From assembly GCA_024711345.1 (NCBI GenBank), contig JANJTA010000025.1, positions 1 to 64,000 on the forward strand: a DNA stretch of 64,000 bases, in the 5' to 3' direction. The translations under genes and the position numbers were made by a program. This DNA is from Rhodanobacter sp. Lineage in GTDB: Bacteria; Pseudomonadota; Gammaproteobacteria; Xanthomonadales; Rhodanobacteraceae. The notes under the pieces were generated by a model. The model searched no databases. It was given only the letters and a program-made list of their open reading frames with translations, and was not told where the DNA came from. Of this stretch, positions 46,430-54,989 are shown piece after piece; within the stretch, counting starts at the first letter, position 1, and the number at the start of each line of letters is the position of its first letter.

Positions 46430-48121
46430 TCATTTCGACGGCGGCGCGGCCGGCTTCACCGGCGGCTTCATCATGGCATCGCGCGCGGCCTTGAACGGGT
46501 TGCCGGCATACCACTGCGGCCACACGCCCGCATGGCTGAGGTACTGGCCCAATTCGTACAGTGCCTGGGTGTCCTGCAGGATGCCCTGCAGGTTCCAGTG
46601 CGGGTCGAACACGTCGTTCGTCGTGTGGTAGCGGTGCGCCGTGTAGTCGTCGGCCGCCTTCTGGCCGGCGGCACGGCCGCCCTCGAGCAGGTCGAGGCCC
46701 GAACTGGCCAGCAGCGCCGGCACGCCGGCCCGCGCGAAGTTGAAATGATCGGAGCGGAAGTAGAAGCCGTTCTCCGGCGTGGTCTCCGGCGAGATCGCCC
46801 GGCCCTGCGTCTTCAGCACGCCGGCAAGCAGGTCCTCCAGCTCGGACTGGCCCTTGCCGATCACCGTCATGTCGCGCGCGGGGCCGATGACCGGCAAGGC
46901 GTCGACGGCGATGTCGGCCACCGTGCGGTTCAACGGAAACACCGGCTTCGCCGCGTAGTACTGCGAGCCGAGCAGGCCCGATTCCTCCAGCGTCGGCATG
47001 AAGAACAGCACGCTGCGCTCGGGCGGCCGCGCCTGCTGCGCGAACGCGCCGGCGATCTGCAGCAGCATGCTCAGGCCGGTGCCGTTGTCGACGGCGCCGG
47101 CATAGACCTGGTGGTCCTTGCGGGTCGGGTCGGTGCCCAGGTGATCCCAGTGCGCGGTGTAGACCACCACCTCGTCGGGCTTGGAGCGGCCCTCGACCAT
47201 CGCCAGCACGTTCTTCGATTCGATGTGACCGATCTTGTTGTGCAGCGTGATGGACGCGGTCGCGTGCAGCGGCACCGGCTCGAAACCCGGCTTCGCCGCA
47301 GCCCGTTCGAGTTCGGCGAAATCGAGGCCGGCGGCAGCGAACAGCCGGGTGGCCGCGTCGCGCGTCAGCCAGCCGGCCACCGGCAACCGCGGCGACGGAT
47401 CGACGCTGGCCGGCAGGCTCAATTGCGGCCCGACCGCGCCGTTCTGCAGCACGCTCCACGGGTAGCCGGCCGCGGCGTCGCTGGTGTGCACGATGAAGCA
47501 CGCCGCGGCGCCCTGCAGCGCGGCCTGCGCGTACTTGTACGGCCAGCGGCCGTACCAGGTCATCGCGCGGCCGTTGAACAGCTTGGGGTCGCGGCTGGCG
47601 AAGCCGGGATCGTTGACCAGCACGATCACCGTCTTGCCCTTCACGTCGACGTTCCGGTAGTCGTTCCAGTGCCACGCTGGCGCATCCGCGCCGTAGCCGA
47701 GGAACACCACCGGCGAGTCCTTCAGCGCGACGTCCACTTTCGCCTGCAGCGTCTGCGCCACCATGTCGGTGCGGTAGGCCAGCTTCAGCGGCTTGCCGGC
47801 CGCGGTGACGTCCAGAGTGACATCGGTATTGAGCAGCAAGGTGGAGTCGGCCGGCACGGTCTGGTACCACGAGCCGTGGTTGCCCGGCTGCAACCCCATC
47901 CGCTTGAACTCGGCCACCAGGAAATCGGTGGTGCGCTGCGCACCGATGGTGCCGGGTTTGCGCCCGCCGAACGCATCGGAGCTGAGCGTCTGGTCGTAGC
48001 GGGCGAAATCGGCGGCGTTGATCGACGGCGACCGCGCCATGTCCACTGCGGCCGCTGCCGCCTGCAGCGGCAACATGACCAGGCCCAGCGCGGCCAGCAG
48101 GATGGAACTCCTCACGCGCAT
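46430..48121 (-). CDS. Exported M28-family aminopeptidase
   Basis: 563 aa with a signal peptide (about 1-25). A PA-like insert (about 130-250) precedes the M28 zinc site: His324 (TAHWDHLG), Asp345 (GAVDNGTG) and Glu379/Glu380 (TLEESGLLGS), with the last His in YHTTND. It is convergent with the M14 gene (22 bp apart) and lies downstream of a diguanylate cyclase gene on the same strand. The open frame continues upstream to 48235, but those residues are Arg-rich and precede the signal peptide, so I start at 48121. Confidence 0.93.
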   Translation of the reverse strand: MRVRSSILLAALGLVMLPLQAAAAAVDMARSPSINAADFARYDQTLSSDAFGGRKPGTIGAQRTTDFLVAEFKRMGLQPGNHGSWYQTVPADSTLLLNTDVTLDVTAAGKPLKLAYRTDMVAQTLQAKVDVALKDSPVVFLGYGADAPAWHWNDYRNVDVKGKTVIVLVNDPGFASRDPKLFNGRAMTWYGRWPYKYAQAALQGAAACFIVHTSDAAAGYPWSVLQNGAVGPQLSLPASVDPSPRLPVAGWLTRDAATRLFAAAGLDFAELERAAAKPGFEPVPLHATASITLHNKIGHIESKNVLAMVEGRSKPDEVVVYTAHWDHLGTDPTRKDHQVYAGAVDNGTGLSMLLQIAGAFAQQARPPERSVLFFMPTLEESGLLGSQYYAAKPVFPLNRTVADIAVDALPVIGPARDMTVIGKGQSELEDLLAGVLKTQGRAISPETTPENGFYFRSDHFNFARAGVPALLASSGLDLLEGGRAAGQKAADDYTAHRYHTTNDVFDPHWNLQGILQDTQALYELGQYLSHAGVWPQWYAGNPFKAARDAMMKPPVKPAAPPSK

Positions 48122-48240
48122 CGAAACACTCCAGGCAATGGCATCGGTCGCCTTTGTAGCGCGCACCTGCGCGGCTGTCCATGCGAGCGGTTGCGATCGC
48201 CGGCTGCGGCGGCAAACGTGCAAGCGCAGCCACACGGCAC

Positions 48241-50007
48241 TCAGCCGTGCGGGCCGGCCTCGAACAGCCTGATCCGGTTGCGTCCCTCGTGCTTGGCCTG
48301 GTACAGGGCGCGGTCGGCGTCGATCATCAGCTGCCGCAGCTCGTAGCCGCAGCTGACCGCGGCAGCCACGCCGAAGCTGGCCGAGATCGGGATGCCGGGC
48401 GCATCCCCGGCGTTCGAGGCAGCGGCGATCGCCGCGCGTATCTGCTCGACCCTAGGCAGCGCGCTGTTCAGCGTGCACTCGGGCAACAGCAGGCCGAACT
48501 CCTCCCCACCAAGGCGGCCGAACACGTCGGTGGAGCGCAGATATGCCTGGCAGGCATCGACCGCGCGCTTCAGCACCCGGTCGCCCACCGCATGCCCATG
48601 TGTGTCGTTGACCAGCTTGAAGTGATCCAGGTCGATCAGCACCAGGCAGGCGTCGCGCGCCGATTTGCGGCAGTAACGCAGCTCCCGCTCGGCCTCGTTG
48701 ACGAAGTGCTGCCGGTTGAAGATGCCGGTGAGGCCGTCGCGCCGCGCCAGCCGCATGAAGCGCAATTGCGAACGCTTGATGCGGTATGCCCACAGTCCAA
48801 TGGATGCCAGCACAAGCAGCAGCAGCGCGATGTACAAGCGGCTGGTTTCCACCGCCTTGCGGTCCAGCTCTCCCTGCAGGGTGAGGATCTTGTTCTTCTT
48901 GTCGAGCCCATCGATCTGCAGCTTTTTCGCCAACATCTGCTGCTTGACGATCTGATAGGCCAGCGCCTTCGCGCTGAGCCGGCTCTGGTAGCCGTCGTGG
49001 GCAGTCATGTACTTTTCAAGGTACGCCAGCGAGTCCTTGCTGTCGCCCCGTTCCTTGGCGACTTCGTAAAGCACCCGATAGGCGCTGGCCGTCGACTCCG
49101 AATACTGCCTGCTGGCATTCGTCACCAGGGCGCTATTGGCAAATTTCACTGCCGAAGCAAGGTCCCCACTTTTCCAGTAAGCCGTGGCCAAGGTAGCCTC
49201 GAACTGGGCAATCTGGGGCGGAAAGCCTGCTTGCCGAACCTTCGGATAGTGTGCCTGCAACAAGCGGATGGCATGCGCGAATTTCCCTTGCCGCATTGAG
49301 AAACTCGCCAATTCATGCTGGAAGCCGAAGGAGAACAAGGTGTCGCCGGCCTTGTCGCAGGCTTCCGAACCATCGCGAAGCTGGTTAGTGGATAGCTGCG
49401 TGGCGCCACTCTCGAATAACGCATCGGCTTTGGAGAACCAGCCCATACATGCATTTTTGGCGTCGGTGCTTTCCTCGATTATTTGATCGGCATAACGAAT
49501 GGACTCATCGTACTGGCCAGCCTCGCCGTACAGTTGCGTGGCGACACCAAACCCCTGTATGCGGACATCACTTTCCTTCATGGTCGGCAGCTGGTCCAGC
49601 AACGGACCAAGCTTGGCAAAAGCCTCCTCATACCGTGACTCAGCCACCAGAAGGTCGATCACCGTGGCACTGGCGCGAAACGCGAGAGTAGGGTCCATGG
49701 TTTGGTCGGCGATCGCCGTCAACGATGGCAGGGCTTCTTTGTAGTTGCCTGCAAAGGCAACCTGCCGTGCCATAAGGTAACGTTGATGCAGCTTCTGCTG
49801 CGGCGAGAGCTTCATTGCAACCGCATCGAGTTGCCTCATCAGCTCATTGAACTTGGCGTGATTGGAGGACTCGACGCTTTCGGCTTGTATCAGCAACTGC
49901 GCAGGATCGTCGGATACCGGCGCAGTCGCAGCCATCGCGCCAGCTTCAGATAAAAGCAGAAACATGCAGCACGCGAATACCAACCCGTATCGGCCCACCC
50001 GGCCCAT
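48241..50007 (-). CDS. TPR-sensor diguanylate cyclase 1 (signal peptide-TPR-TM-GGDEF)
   Basis: 588 aa. A signal peptide (about 1-26) is followed by an alpha-helical TPR-type sensor (about 30-370) expected in the periplasm, a heptad-rich coiled coil (about 355-395), a membrane helix (about 398-416) and a GGDEF domain (about 425-580). The active site GGEEF is intact at 500-504, and RSTD at 491-494 is a correctly spaced I-site for product inhibition. It makes c-di-GMP. It stands 52 bp downstream of a borosin-type precursor gene and is a close paralogue of the protein at 51565-53376. Base composition of the N-terminal half is visibly lower in GC than the neighbours. Confidence 0.93.
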   Translation of the reverse strand: MGRVGRYGLVFACCMFLLLSEAGAMAATAPVSDDPAQLLIQAESVESSNHAKFNELMRQLDAVAMKLSPQQKLHQRYLMARQVAFAGNYKEALPSLTAIADQTMDPTLAFRASATVIDLLVAESRYEEAFAKLGPLLDQLPTMKESDVRIQGFGVATQLYGEAGQYDESIRYADQIIEESTDAKNACMGWFSKADALFESGATQLSTNQLRDGSEACDKAGDTLFSFGFQHELASFSMRQGKFAHAIRLLQAHYPKVRQAGFPPQIAQFEATLATAYWKSGDLASAVKFANSALVTNASRQYSESTASAYRVLYEVAKERGDSKDSLAYLEKYMTAHDGYQSRLSAKALAYQIVKQQMLAKKLQIDGLDKKNKILTLQGELDRKAVETSRLYIALLLLVLASIGLWAYRIKRSQLRFMRLARRDGLTGIFNRQHFVNEAERELRYCRKSARDACLVLIDLDHFKLVNDTHGHAVGDRVLKRAVDACQAYLRSTDVFGRLGGEEFGLLLPECTLNSALPRVEQIRAAIAAASNAGDAPGIPISASFGVAAAVSCGYELRQLMIDADRALYQAKHEGRNRIRLFEAGPHG

Positions 50008-50059
50008 GAGCTAGTCAGTGATCGCAAGCGCAGGAGCGGCAAGTCGTGAAGCCTGGTTC

Positions 50060-50356
50060 TCAATCTCCATCGCTTTTCTTCTCCTTGTCCTTGTCATCCC
50101 TCTTCTCTTCATCCTCTTCGCAGCTGCCGTCACACTCCTCCTGCTCCTCGCCCGGTTTGGCAGGGTGGATCAGGCAGCAGAAAGGATCCTGACCCAGCAA
50201 CGCCTGCAATCCCTGTTTATCCCTGGCAATAATCGCCACCCGCAATTCCGGATCAATCTCTGCACTGGCCAGCGCAAACCCAACTTCATCCTGAGATGCA
50301 TGACGCAATTGCGCGTCCTGCCCAATCCTTTCCAGAAAATCGATGACGCCCATCAT
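50060..50356 (-). CDS. Borosin-type precursor peptide A (98 aa)
   Basis: The N-terminal part (about 1-55) is a predicted helical domain with VIDFLERIGQDAQLRHAS and a second helix near IARDKQGLQALLG; this matches the borosin-binding domain of split borosin precursors such as SonA. It is followed by a short hydrophobic core candidate FCCLIHPA and an acidic/Lys-rich tail with a second Cys pair (EECDGSC). No signal peptide. A GGGGGTAG ribosome-binding site precedes ATG 50356. It is one of five paralogues; the tail shares EECDGSC with peptide C. Confidence 0.85.
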   Translation of the reverse strand: MMGVIDFLERIGQDAQLRHASQDEVGFALASAEIDPELRVAIIARDKQGLQALLGQDPFCCLIHPAKPGEEQEECDGSCEEDEEKRDDKDKEKKSDGD

Positions 50357-50528
50357 TGGTCTACCCCCTACAACTAGCGATTTCGATACTGCCTGTGGTC
50401 AATGCCAGTAAATCGAAAATCTGTCTCCCCCAACATGTCGGACGCAGGTCCGAACCCTTGCGCCAACATCGATTCCCAACACGACGTCCTGAAACAGCGT
50501 GAATGTTAAGTAGTCACCCATCGGAGCT

Positions 50529-50828
50529 CTATGCTGCCCTTTTATCGCTGTTGTCCTTCTCGGCATCATTCTTCCCGTCTTTGTCATCTTTTCCCGTGTA
50601 CTTCTTTTTTTCTTCGTCTTCATCGACCTTGGCCGGGTTGATATAGCAGCAGAAAACATCCTGCCCAAGCATCGCTCCTAGCCCCTGCACATCCTTCGCC
50701 AGAATGGCATCGCAAAACTTCGAATCTATCGATTGGTCTGCCAAAGTGGCGACAACCTTCTCCGAAGAAGCGTAACGCAGCTGCGCATCCTGGCCCACAC
50801 TTTCAAGAAAATCGATCACGTCGAACAT
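50529..50828 (-). CDS. Borosin-type precursor peptide B (99 aa)
   Basis: It begins MFDVIDFLESVGQDAQLRYAS, almost identical to peptide C over the first 20 residues, with a helix near ILAKDVQGLGAMLG and the core candidate FCCYINPA. The 45-residue tail is very rich in Lys, Asp and Glu and has no Cys. An AAGGAG lies 6 nt ahead of ATG 50828; a longer frame upstream is not needed. It lies 172 bp upstream of peptide A on the same strand, in DNA with clearly lower GC than the surroundings. Confidence 0.85.
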   Translation of the reverse strand: MFDVIDFLESVGQDAQLRYASSEKVVATLADQSIDSKFCDAILAKDVQGLGAMLGQDVFCCYINPAKVDEDEEKKKYTGKDDKDGKNDAEKDNSDKRAA

Positions 50829-51050
50829 CAGCCACTCCTTTCCATTGATTTTTTGTACCGCTAGAATCACCAACAACGAATAGTTCTGACGAAAGACTCA
50901 GCGCTTTCAACACGCCTGCCCGCCTTCATGCGTGGAATTGGCGAATGCTAGCAAAACCGCAGCGTCCATGATTAGAAAACGGGCGACGTAATAATGCTGA
51001 GCCGCCCGGCTTATTCACCTGAAACATCGGCTAGTCAGTGACCGCTGGGG
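50829..51050. other. Lower-GC spacer between precursor genes B and C, with duplicated motif
   Basis: 222 bp. GCTAGTCAGTGA (51030-51041) is repeated exactly at 50010-50021, just ahead of the GGDEF gene start. At the corresponding place here an ATG (51027, minus strand) opens a 33-codon frame ending at 50926 that resembles no neighbour. This is best read as the remains of a duplicated peptide-plus-downstream-gene unit. No convincing gene. Confidence 0.5.
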
Positions 51051-51344
51051 CTAAGAAGCAAGTTCTGAAGCATGGTTTTCGTCACCGCTCTTGTCCTTGC
51101 CCTGTTTACAGCTGCCGTCGCACTCCTCCATCTCCTCACCCGGTATGGCAGGATTGATCAGGCAACAGAAGGGATCCTGCCCCAGTATCGCGCCAAGCCC
51201 CTGCGCATCCTTCGCCAGGATGGCGTCGCGAAACTTCGAATCTATCGACGGACCCGCCAAAGTGGCAACAATCTCCTCCGAAGAGGCGTAACGCAGCTGC
51301 GCATCCTGCCCCACACTTTCAAGAAAATCGATCACATCGAACAT
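51051..51344 (-). CDS. Borosin-type precursor peptide C (97 aa)
   Basis: N-terminal MFDVIDFLESVGQDAQLRYAS, second helix ILAKDAQGLGAILG and core candidate FCCLINPA, then EECDGSC and a polar tail. It has the same borosin-binding-domain layout as peptides A and B. No signal peptide. GGGGGAAT lies ahead of ATG 51344. It is the first precursor after the second diguanylate cyclase gene (gap 220 bp), so it may have its own promoter. Confidence 0.85.
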   Translation of the reverse strand: MFDVIDFLESVGQDAQLRYASSEEIVATLAGPSIDSKFRDAILAKDAQGLGAILGQDPFCCLINPAIPGEEMEECDGSCKQGKDKSGDENHASELAS

Positions 51345-51564
51345 CGGTCATTCCCCCATGTCAGGATGATAGATGGCTGGCGATGATGGCCGCATCATCT
51401 TTCGGCAGATCTTTCCCCATTCCACACGCACGGCGCGCCGCAGGCCTCAAACTCCGGCCGCCCGGCGGGCTAAAAGTACACCTTTCCTTTGACGTCGCGC
51501 CATCGCATGGGTACGGGCGATGCCACCCTCGAGGCGGCAGACGAAACGGCTGATCGGAACCGGG

Positions 51565-53376
51565 TTAGTGCAGGCCGTCGACCGTCGCGGCAACGGCGGC
51601 CAGCTGCGGTTTCGATCGGCCGTCGCTGACGCTGACCCGGTTGCGGCCCTCACGTTTGGCGCGGTACAGGGCGTCATCGGCGTGGATCAGCAGCTGGCGC
51701 AGGTCATGCCCGGAATGCTTGGTGGTCGCCACGCCGAAGCTGGCCGAGACGCAGATTTCCTCGGTGGCATCGCCGCGGACCACCTCCGCGATCGCCAGGC
51801 GGATCCGTTCGGTCCGGCCCAGCACCTGCTCGAGCGTGCAGTCCGGCAACACGATGCCGAACTCCTCCCCGCCCAGGCGGCCGAAGATGTCGGTGGAGCG
51901 CAGATGGGCCTGGCAGGCATCCACCGCGCGCTTCAGCACGCGATCGCCCACCGCATGTCCGTAGGTATCGTTGACCGCCTTGAAGTGGTCCAGGTCGATC
52001 AGCACCAGGCAGGCTTCCCGGCCCGACTTCCGGCAGTACTGCAACTGCTGCTCGGCCTCATTGACGAAATGCTGCCGGTTGAAGATGTCCGTGAGCCCGT
52101 CGCGCCGCGCCTGCCGCATGAAACGCAACTGCGAGCGCTTGACGCGGTAAGCCCAGAAAGCAATGAACGCGAGCCCGCCGAGCAGGAGCACGATGTACAG
52201 CCGGCTGGTCTCGGCGGCCTTGCGGTCCAGAGCCTGCTGCAGCTGGAGGATCTCGTTCCGCTTGCTGAGGGTATCGATCTGCAGCTTCTTGGCAGCTAGC
52301 TGCTGCTGCACAGTCTGGTAGGCGAGCGCACGGGCATTCACCGCGTTCAGGTAGCCCTTGTTTGCCAGCATGTACTGCTCGTGATAGGCGAGAGCTTCGT
52401 CCAGGTGTCCCTGCTGCTTTTCGATCAGGTACAGGACACGGTAGGCGATGCTGAGCGACTCCGCGTACTCGTTGTGTTTGCTCTGTTCGACGACCCGAAG
52501 AGCAAACCGTTTGGCCTTCGCCAGCTGACCGGTACTCATGTGCGCCTCGGCCAGCAAGGCATCGAACTCGGAGATCAGCACTTGGTAATTGCTGCGTGTG
52601 ACACTGGCGTAATTGCTCTCCAGCAAGCTGACAGCCTCGTCGGCATGGCCGCGCTGGAGCGCCAGGCTGGCCATGTAGAACCTGATGCCATTGCTGTAGA
52701 GGGAATCCTTTGCTTCCGTGCAGATTTCGACACCCTTGCGGAATTGCTCGTCGATGCCCTCCAACTTGCCGCTCTTGTAGAGCGCGGCCAACCTGGCATG
52801 CTCGGCCTTGCAGCTGTACGGGCCGGGGCTTTCCTTGAAGACCTGGTCGGCATATTCGAAAGCCAAGTCGTACTGCCCAGCCCCCGCGTAGAGGTAAGCC
52901 GCGATGACGAGGGCCTGCCCGCGTGCGTCCGGATCGGTAATCTCTGGCAACTGGGCGAGGAGCTGGCTCTCCAGTTGGAACGCCTCCTCATAACGCGATC
53001 GCTCCGCCAGCGTGTTGACCTTCAGCACCTTGGTCCGGAACAAGACGGCGGCACTGGGGGACTTCTCCAGCAGTTCGCCGATCATGGCATCGGAAGTCAG
53101 GTAATCGCCGCGATAGGCAGCCTGCCATGCTTGGAGATAATGCAGGTAATCAACTTGGTCCGGCATCAGCGCGGGGCTGGCCTTGTCCAGTCGGTCAAGT
53201 ATCCTCTGGAACTCTCCCTGATCGGACAACTTGATGCTGTCCGCGTGCTTGAGCGACATCGAATCGTCACCCGCAACAGCGGGTACGACCGCCAAGGCCG
53301 CACCCGCCGCGAAATGCATACCGAGCAGGACAAGTCCGGTGATCACCACCCCATGGCGCCTGCTGGATGTGCGCAT
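51565..53376 (-). CDS. TPR-sensor diguanylate cyclase 2 (signal peptide-TPR-TM-GGDEF)
   Basis: 603 aa, paralogous to the cyclase at 48241-50007 along its whole length. A signal peptide (about 1-28), periplasmic TPR helices (about 40-370), coiled coil, membrane helix (about 395-415) and GGDEF domain follow in order. GGEEF is at 502-506 with an RSTD I-site nine residues earlier, so it should be active and feedback-inhibited. It starts only 3 bp after the stop of precursor peptide D, so the two are translationally linked. The sensor halves of the two cyclases differ more than the GGDEF halves. Confidence 0.93.
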   Translation of the reverse strand: MRTSSRRHGVVITGLVLLGMHFAAGAALAVVPAVAGDDSMSLKHADSIKLSDQGEFQRILDRLDKASPALMPDQVDYLHYLQAWQAAYRGDYLTSDAMIGELLEKSPSAAVLFRTKVLKVNTLAERSRYEEAFQLESQLLAQLPEITDPDARGQALVIAAYLYAGAGQYDLAFEYADQVFKESPGPYSCKAEHARLAALYKSGKLEGIDEQFRKGVEICTEAKDSLYSNGIRFYMASLALQRGHADEAVSLLESNYASVTRSNYQVLISEFDALLAEAHMSTGQLAKAKRFALRVVEQSKHNEYAESLSIAYRVLYLIEKQQGHLDEALAYHEQYMLANKGYLNAVNARALAYQTVQQQLAAKKLQIDTLSKRNEILQLQQALDRKAAETSRLYIVLLLGGLAFIAFWAYRVKRSQLRFMRQARRDGLTDIFNRQHFVNEAEQQLQYCRKSGREACLVLIDLDHFKAVNDTYGHAVGDRVLKRAVDACQAHLRSTDIFGRLGGEEFGIVLPDCTLEQVLGRTERIRLAIAEVVRGDATEEICVSASFGVATTKHSGHDLRQLLIHADDALYRAKREGRNRVSVSDGRSKPQLAAVAATVDGLH

Positions 53377-53379
53377 GCT

Positions 53380-53670
53380 CTAACCCAACGAAACAGCAGC
53401 CCCCAAATTTCGGGCCACTTTCGCCGACACTCTGGGTGAAGAAACTGCTTCAGCGTCATCCCCCTGCTCTTTGCCAAACGCCAAGAACCCAATGTTTGGA
53501 ACCATGCCAAGCAAAGCCTCCAGTCGGATCTGGCTACCAGCGCGAATGGCCTCCTGGATTTGAGGATCGAAACCCGCCGAAGTCAGTGCAAGCTCGAACT
53601 CACCCCCTGTTCCGCGGCCCAGCCGCGCATCCTGACCGACTTGATCAAGAAATCCGATGACGTCTGACAT
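53380..53670 (-). CDS. Divergent borosin-type precursor peptide D (96 aa)
   Basis: It begins MSDVIGFLDQVGQDARLGRG, in register with the other precursors, with a second helix (AIRAGSQIRLEALLG). The core position reads MVPNIGFLAFG, hydrophobic and Gly-containing, without the Cys-Cys-Pro-Ala of its relatives. The tail is Ala/Val/Ser-rich and not strongly acidic. AAGGGAG precedes ATG 53670. It is immediately upstream (3 bp) of the second diguanylate cyclase. Confidence 0.78.
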   Translation of the reverse strand: MSDVIGFLDQVGQDARLGRGTGGEFELALTSAGFDPQIQEAIRAGSQIRLEALLGMVPNIGFLAFGKEQGDDAEAVSSPRVSAKVARNLGAAVSLG

Positions 53671-53762
53671 AAGCAGTCTCCCTTAGTTGATGTTGGCTAA
53701 AACAGCACGCCCGATAGAGTCGGAATTCTTCGTGCGCAGTGCGCCGCCGAATCCTTCCTGCC

Positions 53763-54026
53763 TCAGGCTCGCCGTTGGTGGTAGCACTCATCCTCACCGA
53801 TGCCCGAATCTCGGTCAGCCTGGACCATGGCGGGCACCAGCATGCAACACACGTTCTTCGCACCCGCCAATGCGGTCAGCCGAGCCTGATCCTTCGCCAG
53901 CACGGCATCGCGCACCTCGGGGTCGACCTGGATATCGGCAAGCATGTGCTGCAGCTCCCCGGCGGAAGCATAGCGCAAGCTGGCGTTCTGACCGACGTTC
54001 TCAAGAAAATCGACGATATTCGACAA
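53763..54026 (-). CDS. Borosin-type precursor peptide E (87 aa)
   Basis: It starts with TTG at 54026 (CCGGAG ribosome-binding site upstream), reading (M)SNIVDFLENVGQNASLRYAS, then the helix VLAKDQARLTALAG and the core candidate VCCMLVPAM, with a short tail ending in ECYHQRRA. The open frame continues upstream to 54131, but that part lacks the family pattern. It is the precursor nearest to the methyltransferase gene (141 bp downstream of its stop) and lies 92 bp upstream of peptide D. Confidence 0.8.
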   Translation of the reverse strand: MSNIVDFLENVGQNASLRYASAGELQHMLADIQVDPEVRDAVLAKDQARLTALAGAKNVCCMLVPAMVQADRDSGIGEDECYHQRRA

Positions 54027-54167
54027 GGCGTATCTCCGGGGATAGTCAATGGATTGGAATGACGCGGCTGGCCTGATGCAGGGTGGAATGGTTTGCCCCC
54101 GCAGCAAAGTCTCAAAACCGCGCCGATTCATCCTAGGGACGACGCCAATGCCAACTTGCCGACTCGT

Positions 54168-54989
54168 TCACAAAACGCCGGCATCCTGCTTGATTTCCGC
54201 CTTGTCCAGCGCGTCCAGCCGCGCGCGCATTTCCAGGTCGGGCTGCAGCGGGCCGACCGGTGGCAGCACCACGGTGTCTTCCATGCCGACCTCCGCCTGC
54301 GGCAGCTCCGCCAGCCGGATCCGGCGGATGCGCGGCTGCTGGATCGGCAGGGTGGCGCCGCGGTAGATGGTGATCTCGTGGTCCAGCGGATACTCGCGCG
54401 CCAGTACCTCGACCAGCAGCTCGCGGTAGAGGGGGCCGGTGGAGAAGCGCGCCAGCGACTGGTCGCCGACCAGGCCCACCTGCCACAGCACCAGGTAGGC
54501 GGTCGGGTCGATCCGGCGTTTGTAGAACAGCAGCTGGCTGGCCTCGAAGTGCTGGCAGCCGTAGCGGCCCGGGTCGATGCCCAGGTCGGCATACAGGCAG
54601 TCCTCGGCCGAGATGCCCGGCTCCATGTGCGCCTCGTAGCCTTCGCTGCGGGCCACCTCGATCGACTTGTGCGGCGCCCAGGCAAACACGCCGGGATGGC
54701 CGTAGAACACGCCGCATACCCGCTTGCCTGCGCGCACCTCGGTGAGGATGGCCTCGACCATCTCGCGGTAGGTTTTCATGCGCGACTTGCCTTCGCGGTA
54801 GTACGGCTGCAGGCTGCGCACGTCCGGGTGCATCTTGTGCAGCCACATCTCCACGATGCCGTCGGAGAGTCCGGCGAACACCACGTCGGCCTGCTCGATG
54901 TAGCTGCGCGCCAGTGGGCCGAGGTGCGAGCCGAGGGTCATGCCCAGGCCCACGCAGACCAGGCTGCCGGGTGAAGGTGCTGCATCCAT
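54168..54989 (-). CDS. Split borosin alpha-N-methyltransferase (SonM/OphMA-like)
   Basis: A 273-aa tetrapyrrole-methylase-fold SAM enzyme. It closely follows the borosin methyltransferases that methylate peptide backbone nitrogens of a precursor: GSLVCVGLGMTLG (SAM loop), SYIEQADVVF, VFYGHPGVFAWAPHKSI, EPGISAEDCLYADLGIDPG, FEASQLLFYKR and YPLDHEITIYRGATLPIQ. The OphMA catalytic set Tyr66, Arg72, Tyr76, Tyr98 is present as Tyr64, Arg70, Tyr74, Tyr96. There is no fused precursor at the C-terminus, so it is the split type acting in trans. Siroheme and cobalamin methylases lack this combination. ATG 54989 is chosen; ATG 55022 is possible. It lies 63 bp downstream of the slipin gene. Confidence 0.92.
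   Translation of the reverse strand: MDAAPSPGSLVCVGLGMTLGSHLGPLARSYIEQADVVFAGLSDGIVEMWLHKMHPDVRSLQPYYREGKSRMKTYREMVEAILTEVRAGKRVCGVFYGHPGVFAWAPHKSIEVARSEGYEAHMEPGISAEDCLYADLGIDPGRYGCQHFEASQLLFYKRRIDPTAYLVLWQVGLVGDQSLARFSTGPLYRELLVEVLAREYPLDHEITIYRGATLPIQQPRIRRIRLAELPQAEVGMEDTVVLPPVGPLQPDLEMRARLDALDKAEIKQDAGVL

Follow-up and report, generated by a model that had tools for sequence, protein, structure and literature searches.

Why the genes of a peptide-modifying pathway alternate with genes for cyclic di-GMP (c-di-GMP) synthesis is the question raised by a locus of Rhodanobacter sp. (assembly GCA_024711345.1, contig JANJTA010000025.1, positions 1 to 64,000; this stretch of 64,000 nucleotides (nt) is called the window). 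The locus, at 48241-54989, contains eight genes, all on the minus strand: one methyltransferase gene, five precursor peptide genes (A-E) and two genes encoding proteins with a TPR sensor and a GGDEF domain (TPR-GGDEF 1 and 2). From 54989 down, the gene order is methyltransferase, precursors E and D, TPR-GGDEF 2, precursors C, B and A, and TPR-GGDEF 1, with intergenic gaps of 141, 92, 3, 220, 222, 172 and 52 nt in the same order, so that D lies 3 nt from TPR-GGDEF 2 and A lies 52 nt from TPR-GGDEF 1. An earlier reading, made from the DNA letters and general knowledge (the sequence-only reading), had listed these eight genes, and re-reading the sequence confirmed them with all coordinates as placed. 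It had also assigned them to a split borosin locus, which sequence, conserved residues and predicted fold now support. Judged by its sequence, the locus belongs to the type IV split borosins, and the recurrence of the peptide-cyclase pairing in related bacteria suggests that the methylated peptide would act on the co-encoded c-di-GMP enzyme.

The methyltransferase gene (54168-54989) encodes a predicted SonM-like peptide alpha-N-methyltransferase of 273 amino acids, P0001. Its likeness to SonM, already noted in the sequence-only reading, holds on comparison with PDB entry 7ltc (E 2e-78; 129 of 251 aligned residues identical, 51%); P0001 also matches the OphMA structures (E about 1e-48) and Pfam TP_methylase (E 7.6e-20). 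All six checked active-site or lock residues are kept, these being the equivalents of SonM Y58, R67, Y71, Y93, F99 and W166. The catalytic residues Y58, R67 and Y71 correspond to Y64, R70 and Y74 in P0001 and are conserved in 99 of the 99 aligned methyltransferases, P0001 included. A discrete homologue of SonM and OphMA with intact catalytic residues is, at the level of sequence features, the enzyme of a type IV split borosin system.

The precursors are encoded at 50060-50356 (A), 50529-50828 (B), 51051-51344 (C), 53380-53670 (D) and 53763-54026 (E), all on the minus strand, and match the precursor profile with E-values of 5.8e-30, 3.7e-26, 1.2e-24, 2.3e-19 and 7.6e-26, respectively. Their core regions are FCCLIHPA in A, which also shows an acidic tail, FCCYINPA in B, FCCLINPA in C, GFLAF in D and NVCCMLVPA in E. 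Precursor E has a SonA-like leader by alignment and a TTG start, which is supported by L032 and L111, two relatives that have ATG there. The resemblance to SonA claimed in the sequence-only reading was found at two levels: the likeness in sequence is weak, and the predicted five-helix fold is also SonA-like. A PDB search with precursor A at E<=10 found seven distinct sequences, solely SonA or SonA variants; its predicted helices are H2-13, H15-19, H22-31, H36-43 and H47-54. In an ungapped alignment C60 and L62 of precursor A would face SonA L63 and I65, provided that the numbering of the SonA paper is offset by three from the chain, as we infer; the pattern is conserved. A Pro after the core is present at that column in 83% of 155 sequences. 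An adjacent, separate precursor with a predicted five-helix borosin-binding domain is a further feature of a type IV split borosin present here, and the precursors would be N-methylated on the backbone. Precursors B and C (50529-51344) are near-duplicates, with 48 of 55 leader residues identical and 78% identity in the first 240 nt. In precursor D the usual Pro of the core is missing, and by eye the tail is unlike those of L032 and L111; since this tail suggests a frame change relative to these close relatives, D may be decaying.

TPR-GGDEF 1 (P0008; 48241-50007, minus strand) and TPR-GGDEF 2 (51565-53376, minus strand) both show a signal-peptide-like start, a TPR sensor, a transmembrane helix and a GGEEF cyclase domain (Pfam GGDEF, E 4.2e-41 and 3.6e-44, respectively), with an RxxD I-site noted in TPR-GGDEF 1; TPR-GGDEF 2 matches the TPR family profile, of which it is itself a member, with an E-value of 6.5e-144. 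In TPR-GGDEF 1 the TPR sensor spans about residues 30-355, and a long helix (323-422) carries the membrane stretch and runs into the GGDEF domain; its structure model is a helical solenoid (mean predicted local distance difference test score, pLDDT, 88.5; predicted template modelling score, pTM, 0.60). GGEEF together with the RxxD I-site is found in 102 of the 107 distinct modules, GGEEF being invariant in 31 aligned sequences. By their intact GG(D/E)EF motif and I-site these domains are, in sequence terms, diguanylate cyclases predicted to synthesize c-di-GMP. A simple hydropathy script found a transmembrane stretch ahead of GGDEF in 104 of the 107 modules, a more positive flanking charge on the cyclase side in all 104 stretches, and an N-terminal hydrophobic stretch in 88 modules. 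The TPR region contains exactly two Cys residues in 102 modules; they are C187 and C217 in P0008 and invariant in the 31 aligned sequences, six of seven SonM-type loci retain both, and a periplasmic C187-C217 disulfide may fairly be predicted. Membrane diguanylate cyclases of the YfiN/TpbB type show a periplasmic sensor, a transmembrane helix and a GG(D/E)EF output with an I-site. The locus cyclases share this architecture and differ by their TPR sensor subfamily, which in the searched genomes is almost confined to carriers of a borosin methyltransferase.

The genome that contains the window (3.8 Mb, 41 contigs) shows a methyltransferase of this kind at a single place. The precursor profile, built from 72 rows with the five locus precursors among them, matches exactly the five locus genes at E<=0.01. 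Of the 22 GGDEF places, only the two locus proteins match P0008 across both the TPR and the GGDEF parts; at the other 20 the match starts only at residue 360. Because the genome-wide matches of all three kinds are confined to the locus, the grouping of the eight genes exceeds chance. The G+C content of 48241-54989 is 60%, against 70% in the remaining window, and is lowest (54%) in the C-B-A block; a promoter scan gave three sites (1.5 expected) and a terminator scan four (5.6 expected).

The same set of genes was compared across 101 loci, namely the window, the best 80 of 118 relatives and 20 stretches chosen from genomes of the same genus, which are 97 without four duplicates; they were collected via the methyltransferase and have no bearing on precursors elsewhere in those genomes. 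A precursor is present in 97 of 97 distinct loci: one in 67, two in 23, three in four, four in two, and five in one, the window. A TPR-GGDEF open reading frame is found in 94 of the 97; L063 and L093 end at a contig end, and L072 shows none. Duplicates included, 120 of 127 TPR-GGDEF reading frames have a precursor upstream. The order methyltransferase, precursor, TPR-GGDEF is usual in Rhodanobacter, Dyella, Steroidobacter-like bacteria, Shewanella, Rheinheimera and others. The precursor number, which the sequence-only reading had considered new, is high at five but is no record, because L163 holds seven in one locus. There (L163:4846-9854) the methyltransferase is followed by seven tandem precursors, the first six without an acidic tail, and one TPR-GGDEF gene, and the genome shows 13 precursor matches in total.

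Among 197 genomes of the family, 128 gave a methyltransferase match (E<=1e-20), 130 a match to the TPR family (E<=1e-15) and 123 a precursor match (E<=1e-6). Presence or absence is the same for the methyltransferase and the TPR family in 195 of these genomes, with both in 128 and neither in 67, and only G120 and G180 contain the TPR family alone (Fisher p 5.5e-51, kinship ignored); G180 is also the one genome with a precursor and without the methyltransferase. A search of 274 genomes of the class found the TPR family solely in the genome of the window, and the four class genomes with distant methyltransferases (27-40% identity) show no precursor or GGDEF gene at these loci and no TPR family. 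Twelve Shewanella genomes, picked because they hold loci of the related set, contain two methyltransferases each, the first with 60-64% and the second with 47-53% identity to P0001, and a TPR-profile protein lies near each of the 24 enzymes. The second kind is SonM-like (457 bits against SonM for the L156 enzyme, the one compared), and seven of seven SonM-like Shewanella loci, S. oneidensis not being among them, show the order methyltransferase, precursor, TPR-GGDEF. The idea that SonM-type loci have no cyclase was ruled out for these seven loci, and the arrangement thus extends to close kin of the characterised system.

With SonM-SonA of S. oneidensis, a type IV split borosin, the window shares the separate methyltransferase and precursor, the 51% identical enzyme, the same checked residues and the SonA-like leader; it differs in having five precursors and two cyclase modules, in the greater length of its acidic tails and in cores rich in Cys. 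The words GGDEF and diguanylate are absent from the main text of the SonM-SonA paper (PMC8429565). GGDEF is named in the legend of a borosin-type figure in PMC11395268 (IJMS, International Journal of Molecular Sciences, 2024), where both of its main-text occurrences stand, so the cyclase pairing is not wholly unreported. Given this legend and the related loci, the seven SonM-like ones among them, the view of the sequence-only reading that the arrangement is new is not supported as it stands. The module view and the receptor idea set out below did not turn up in searches of the open PMC literature, which covered a small part of what has been published.

Precursor and TPR-GGDEF gene look like a repeated unit, which duplicates, shifts its order and occurs without a methyltransferase in the stretch. 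Twenty TPR-GGDEF places were chosen as seemingly unlinked to a methyltransferase, and four turned out to have one nearby; 15 of the other 16 show a precursor directly upstream, L136 being the exception, and at L140 the contig ends, so that a methyltransferase may follow past that end. Counted from the methyltransferase, the cyclase-1-type module takes second place in the window, L031, L113 and L115 and first place in L117 and L118, and in every case it goes with an A-type precursor (identity of 73-77% for the TPR and 66-86% for the precursor). In L161:6576-7480, beside a second precursor, the start of a TPR-GGDEF gene is fused to a methyltransferase end, a trace of tandem duplication of the unit. 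Modules were matched in 17 two-module loci, giving 136 pairs that are not independent, 125 of them usable: TPR and precursor agree in 34 of 37 pairs with a TPR difference >0.05 and in 31 of 31 with one >0.1, part of which linkage alone would explain. With methyltransferase distance held, precursor distance correlates with TPR distance (partial r 0.35; highest of 200 permutations 0.16) and hardly with GGDEF-domain distance (0.09); TPR and GGDEF, parts of one gene, give 0.33. The leader alone gives 0.43 with the TPR domain. Linkage, co-occurrence and co-duplication all support a tie between peptide and c-di-GMP enzyme, as the sequence-only reading had proposed.

What the computation shows is which enzyme this is, that the leader is SonA-like, that the cyclase motif is intact, and that the pairing exists and is conserved; the three conserved genes match what would be expected of a methyltransferase in the cytoplasm, a peptide and a receptor-cyclase. 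With slightly better than even confidence, we take the N-methylated peptide to be a dedicated signal for the co-encoded, periplasm-facing diguanylate cyclase, and signalling to be the job of the locus. The SonM-like enzyme would methylate backbone amides in the short core just after the five-helix leader of A-E; the peptide, whole or processed by cutting, would be exported to the periplasm and bind the TPR-GGDEF protein whose gene directly follows that of the precursor, at the TPR solenoid; and the binding signal would pass via the transmembrane helix to the GGEEF domain, altering c-di-GMP synthesis in either direction, with the output that this may have. E and D would serve cyclase 2, and C, B and A would serve cyclase 1.

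The TPR fold offers a lead to peptide binding. The full-length model was compared with known structures by VIA-align, and GGDEF structures dominate, with seven TPR rows among the 50 matches listed: two of APPBP2 with a degron and five of Rap proteins, whose titles mention a pheromone in three, an inhibitory peptide in one and the competence and sporulation factor in one. Rap, NprR, PlcR, PrgX and Rgg form the RRNPP group of Firmicutes, in which a small peptide gene adjoins the receptor gene, as in the locus, and which is defined by a cytoplasmic receptor with a helix-turn-helix or phosphatase-type output. The TPR solenoid is common to both, and the predicted fold matches the shape of Rap structures with peptides. 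The window differs by a predicted periplasmic, membrane-anchored and cyclase-joined TPR domain, a Gram-negative host, and a peptide that is a candidate for backbone methylation and has no secretion signal. Given its GGDEF output and the transmembrane stretch in 104 of 107 modules, the locus receptor is not an RRNPP member, though it may work alike.

Several results weigh against a peptide signal. The Rap likeness of the model is a lead and no proof, because TPR folds are generically alike; with a profile of the TPR domain sequence RapF scores 5e-4, and designed TPRs and LGN score better. No upstream precursor is present for seven of the 127 TPR-GGDEF reading frames, nor for L136, and six of the 128 methyltransferase genomes (G098, G109, G122, G130, G150 and G159) show no precursor at E<=1e-6. 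Without a margin, module matching agrees in 76 of 125 pairs, near chance. Co-variation of the core with the TPR domain, with methyltransferase distance held, is absent (partial r -0.03); core distance goes with that of the methyltransferase (0.40) and, weakly, with that of the GGDEF domain (0.16), and the difference from the leader counts against a core-only ligand. Linked genes also co-inherit without needing direct contact. Transport is the weak link of the mechanism: the hydropathy script found a signal-like hydrophobic stretch in 0 of 147 precursors, and no family of exporters or peptidases was shared by the 54 loci whose neighbours were compared. Since the precursors have no such stretch and the TPR domain is predicted to be periplasmic, peptide and receptor may never meet.

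Maturation may vary by lineage, because 16 of the 101 loci (Shewanella, Bowmanella and Aliiglaciecola) carry a gene for a pepsin-like protease and 47 have a GNAT acetyltransferase gene <=1.5 kb from the methyltransferase (L039:10759-11373 and L082:9318-9887, for example). The GNAT protein may be a second tailoring enzyme, and the search for a close GNAT in the genome of the window gave a single partial match with 36% identity. The pepsin-like aspartyl protease, which in L082:7505-9310 has no obvious signal peptide by eye, is a possible leader peptidase. A neighbouring M28 peptidase (46433-48142, Pfam) was considered as the maturation enzyme and left out of the locus, because it occurs in 22 of 101 loci, 19 of these in Rhodanobacter, and the matches in the other three (L055, L094 and L102) sit at least 5 kb upstream.

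Cyclases are able to regulate adjoining biosynthetic genes, and TPR-GGDEF might sense another periplasmic cue while c-di-GMP controls the making or release of a borosin acting elsewhere, as a toxin, metallophore or matrix component. This possibility, which we consider rather unlikely, agrees with the GNAT and pepsin-like protease genes, which resemble a biosynthetic cluster, and the Cys-rich cores might, speculatively, bind metal; yet a single regulator per pathway would be enough, while the cyclase duplicates along with the precursor, adjoins precursors even where the stretch has no methyltransferase, and has a TPR sensor that precursor divergence follows more than it follows the cyclase domain. 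It is less probable still that the precursor is a protein partner: its leader domain would attach to the TPR-GGDEF protein, with or without methylation, and govern how active that protein is or how it assembles, and no mature natural product would be made. The co-variation of the leader, not the core, with the TPR domain and the lack of a common peptidase or exporter in the compared loci speak for such a partner, but the kept Pro after the core and the conservation of the checked enzyme residues in all 99 sequences make modification seem important, and precursor and TPR domain are predicted to lie across the membrane from each other. Mere inherited linkage of three unrelated genes is very improbable: flanking genes are likewise conserved among Rhodanobacter loci and the counts include kinship, but the gene set turns up in many genera, in varied orders and surroundings, presence and absence match in nearly all the family genomes, and modules persist away from the methyltransferase.

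The dedicated-signal reading also has a broader form, which we hold tentatively, at a little under even chances. In it, a widespread signalling system of Gammaproteobacteria would use a backbone N-methylated ribosomal peptide as a ligand dedicated to a TPR diguanylate cyclase that spans the membrane and is encoded with it, as a Gram-negative counterpart of RRNPP pheromone sensing that is based on ribosomally synthesized and post-translationally modified peptides (RiPPs) and writes directly into c-di-GMP; one trans-acting methyltransferase would serve several peptide-receptor modules, some of them chromosomally distant, and precursor arrays would be alternative signals for one receptor. Close partnership with one sensor-cyclase subfamily offers for these peptides a possible concrete role open to testing, an assayable receptor and many natural peptide-receptor pairs and, if true, would tie RiPP chemistry to the switch between motile and sessile life.

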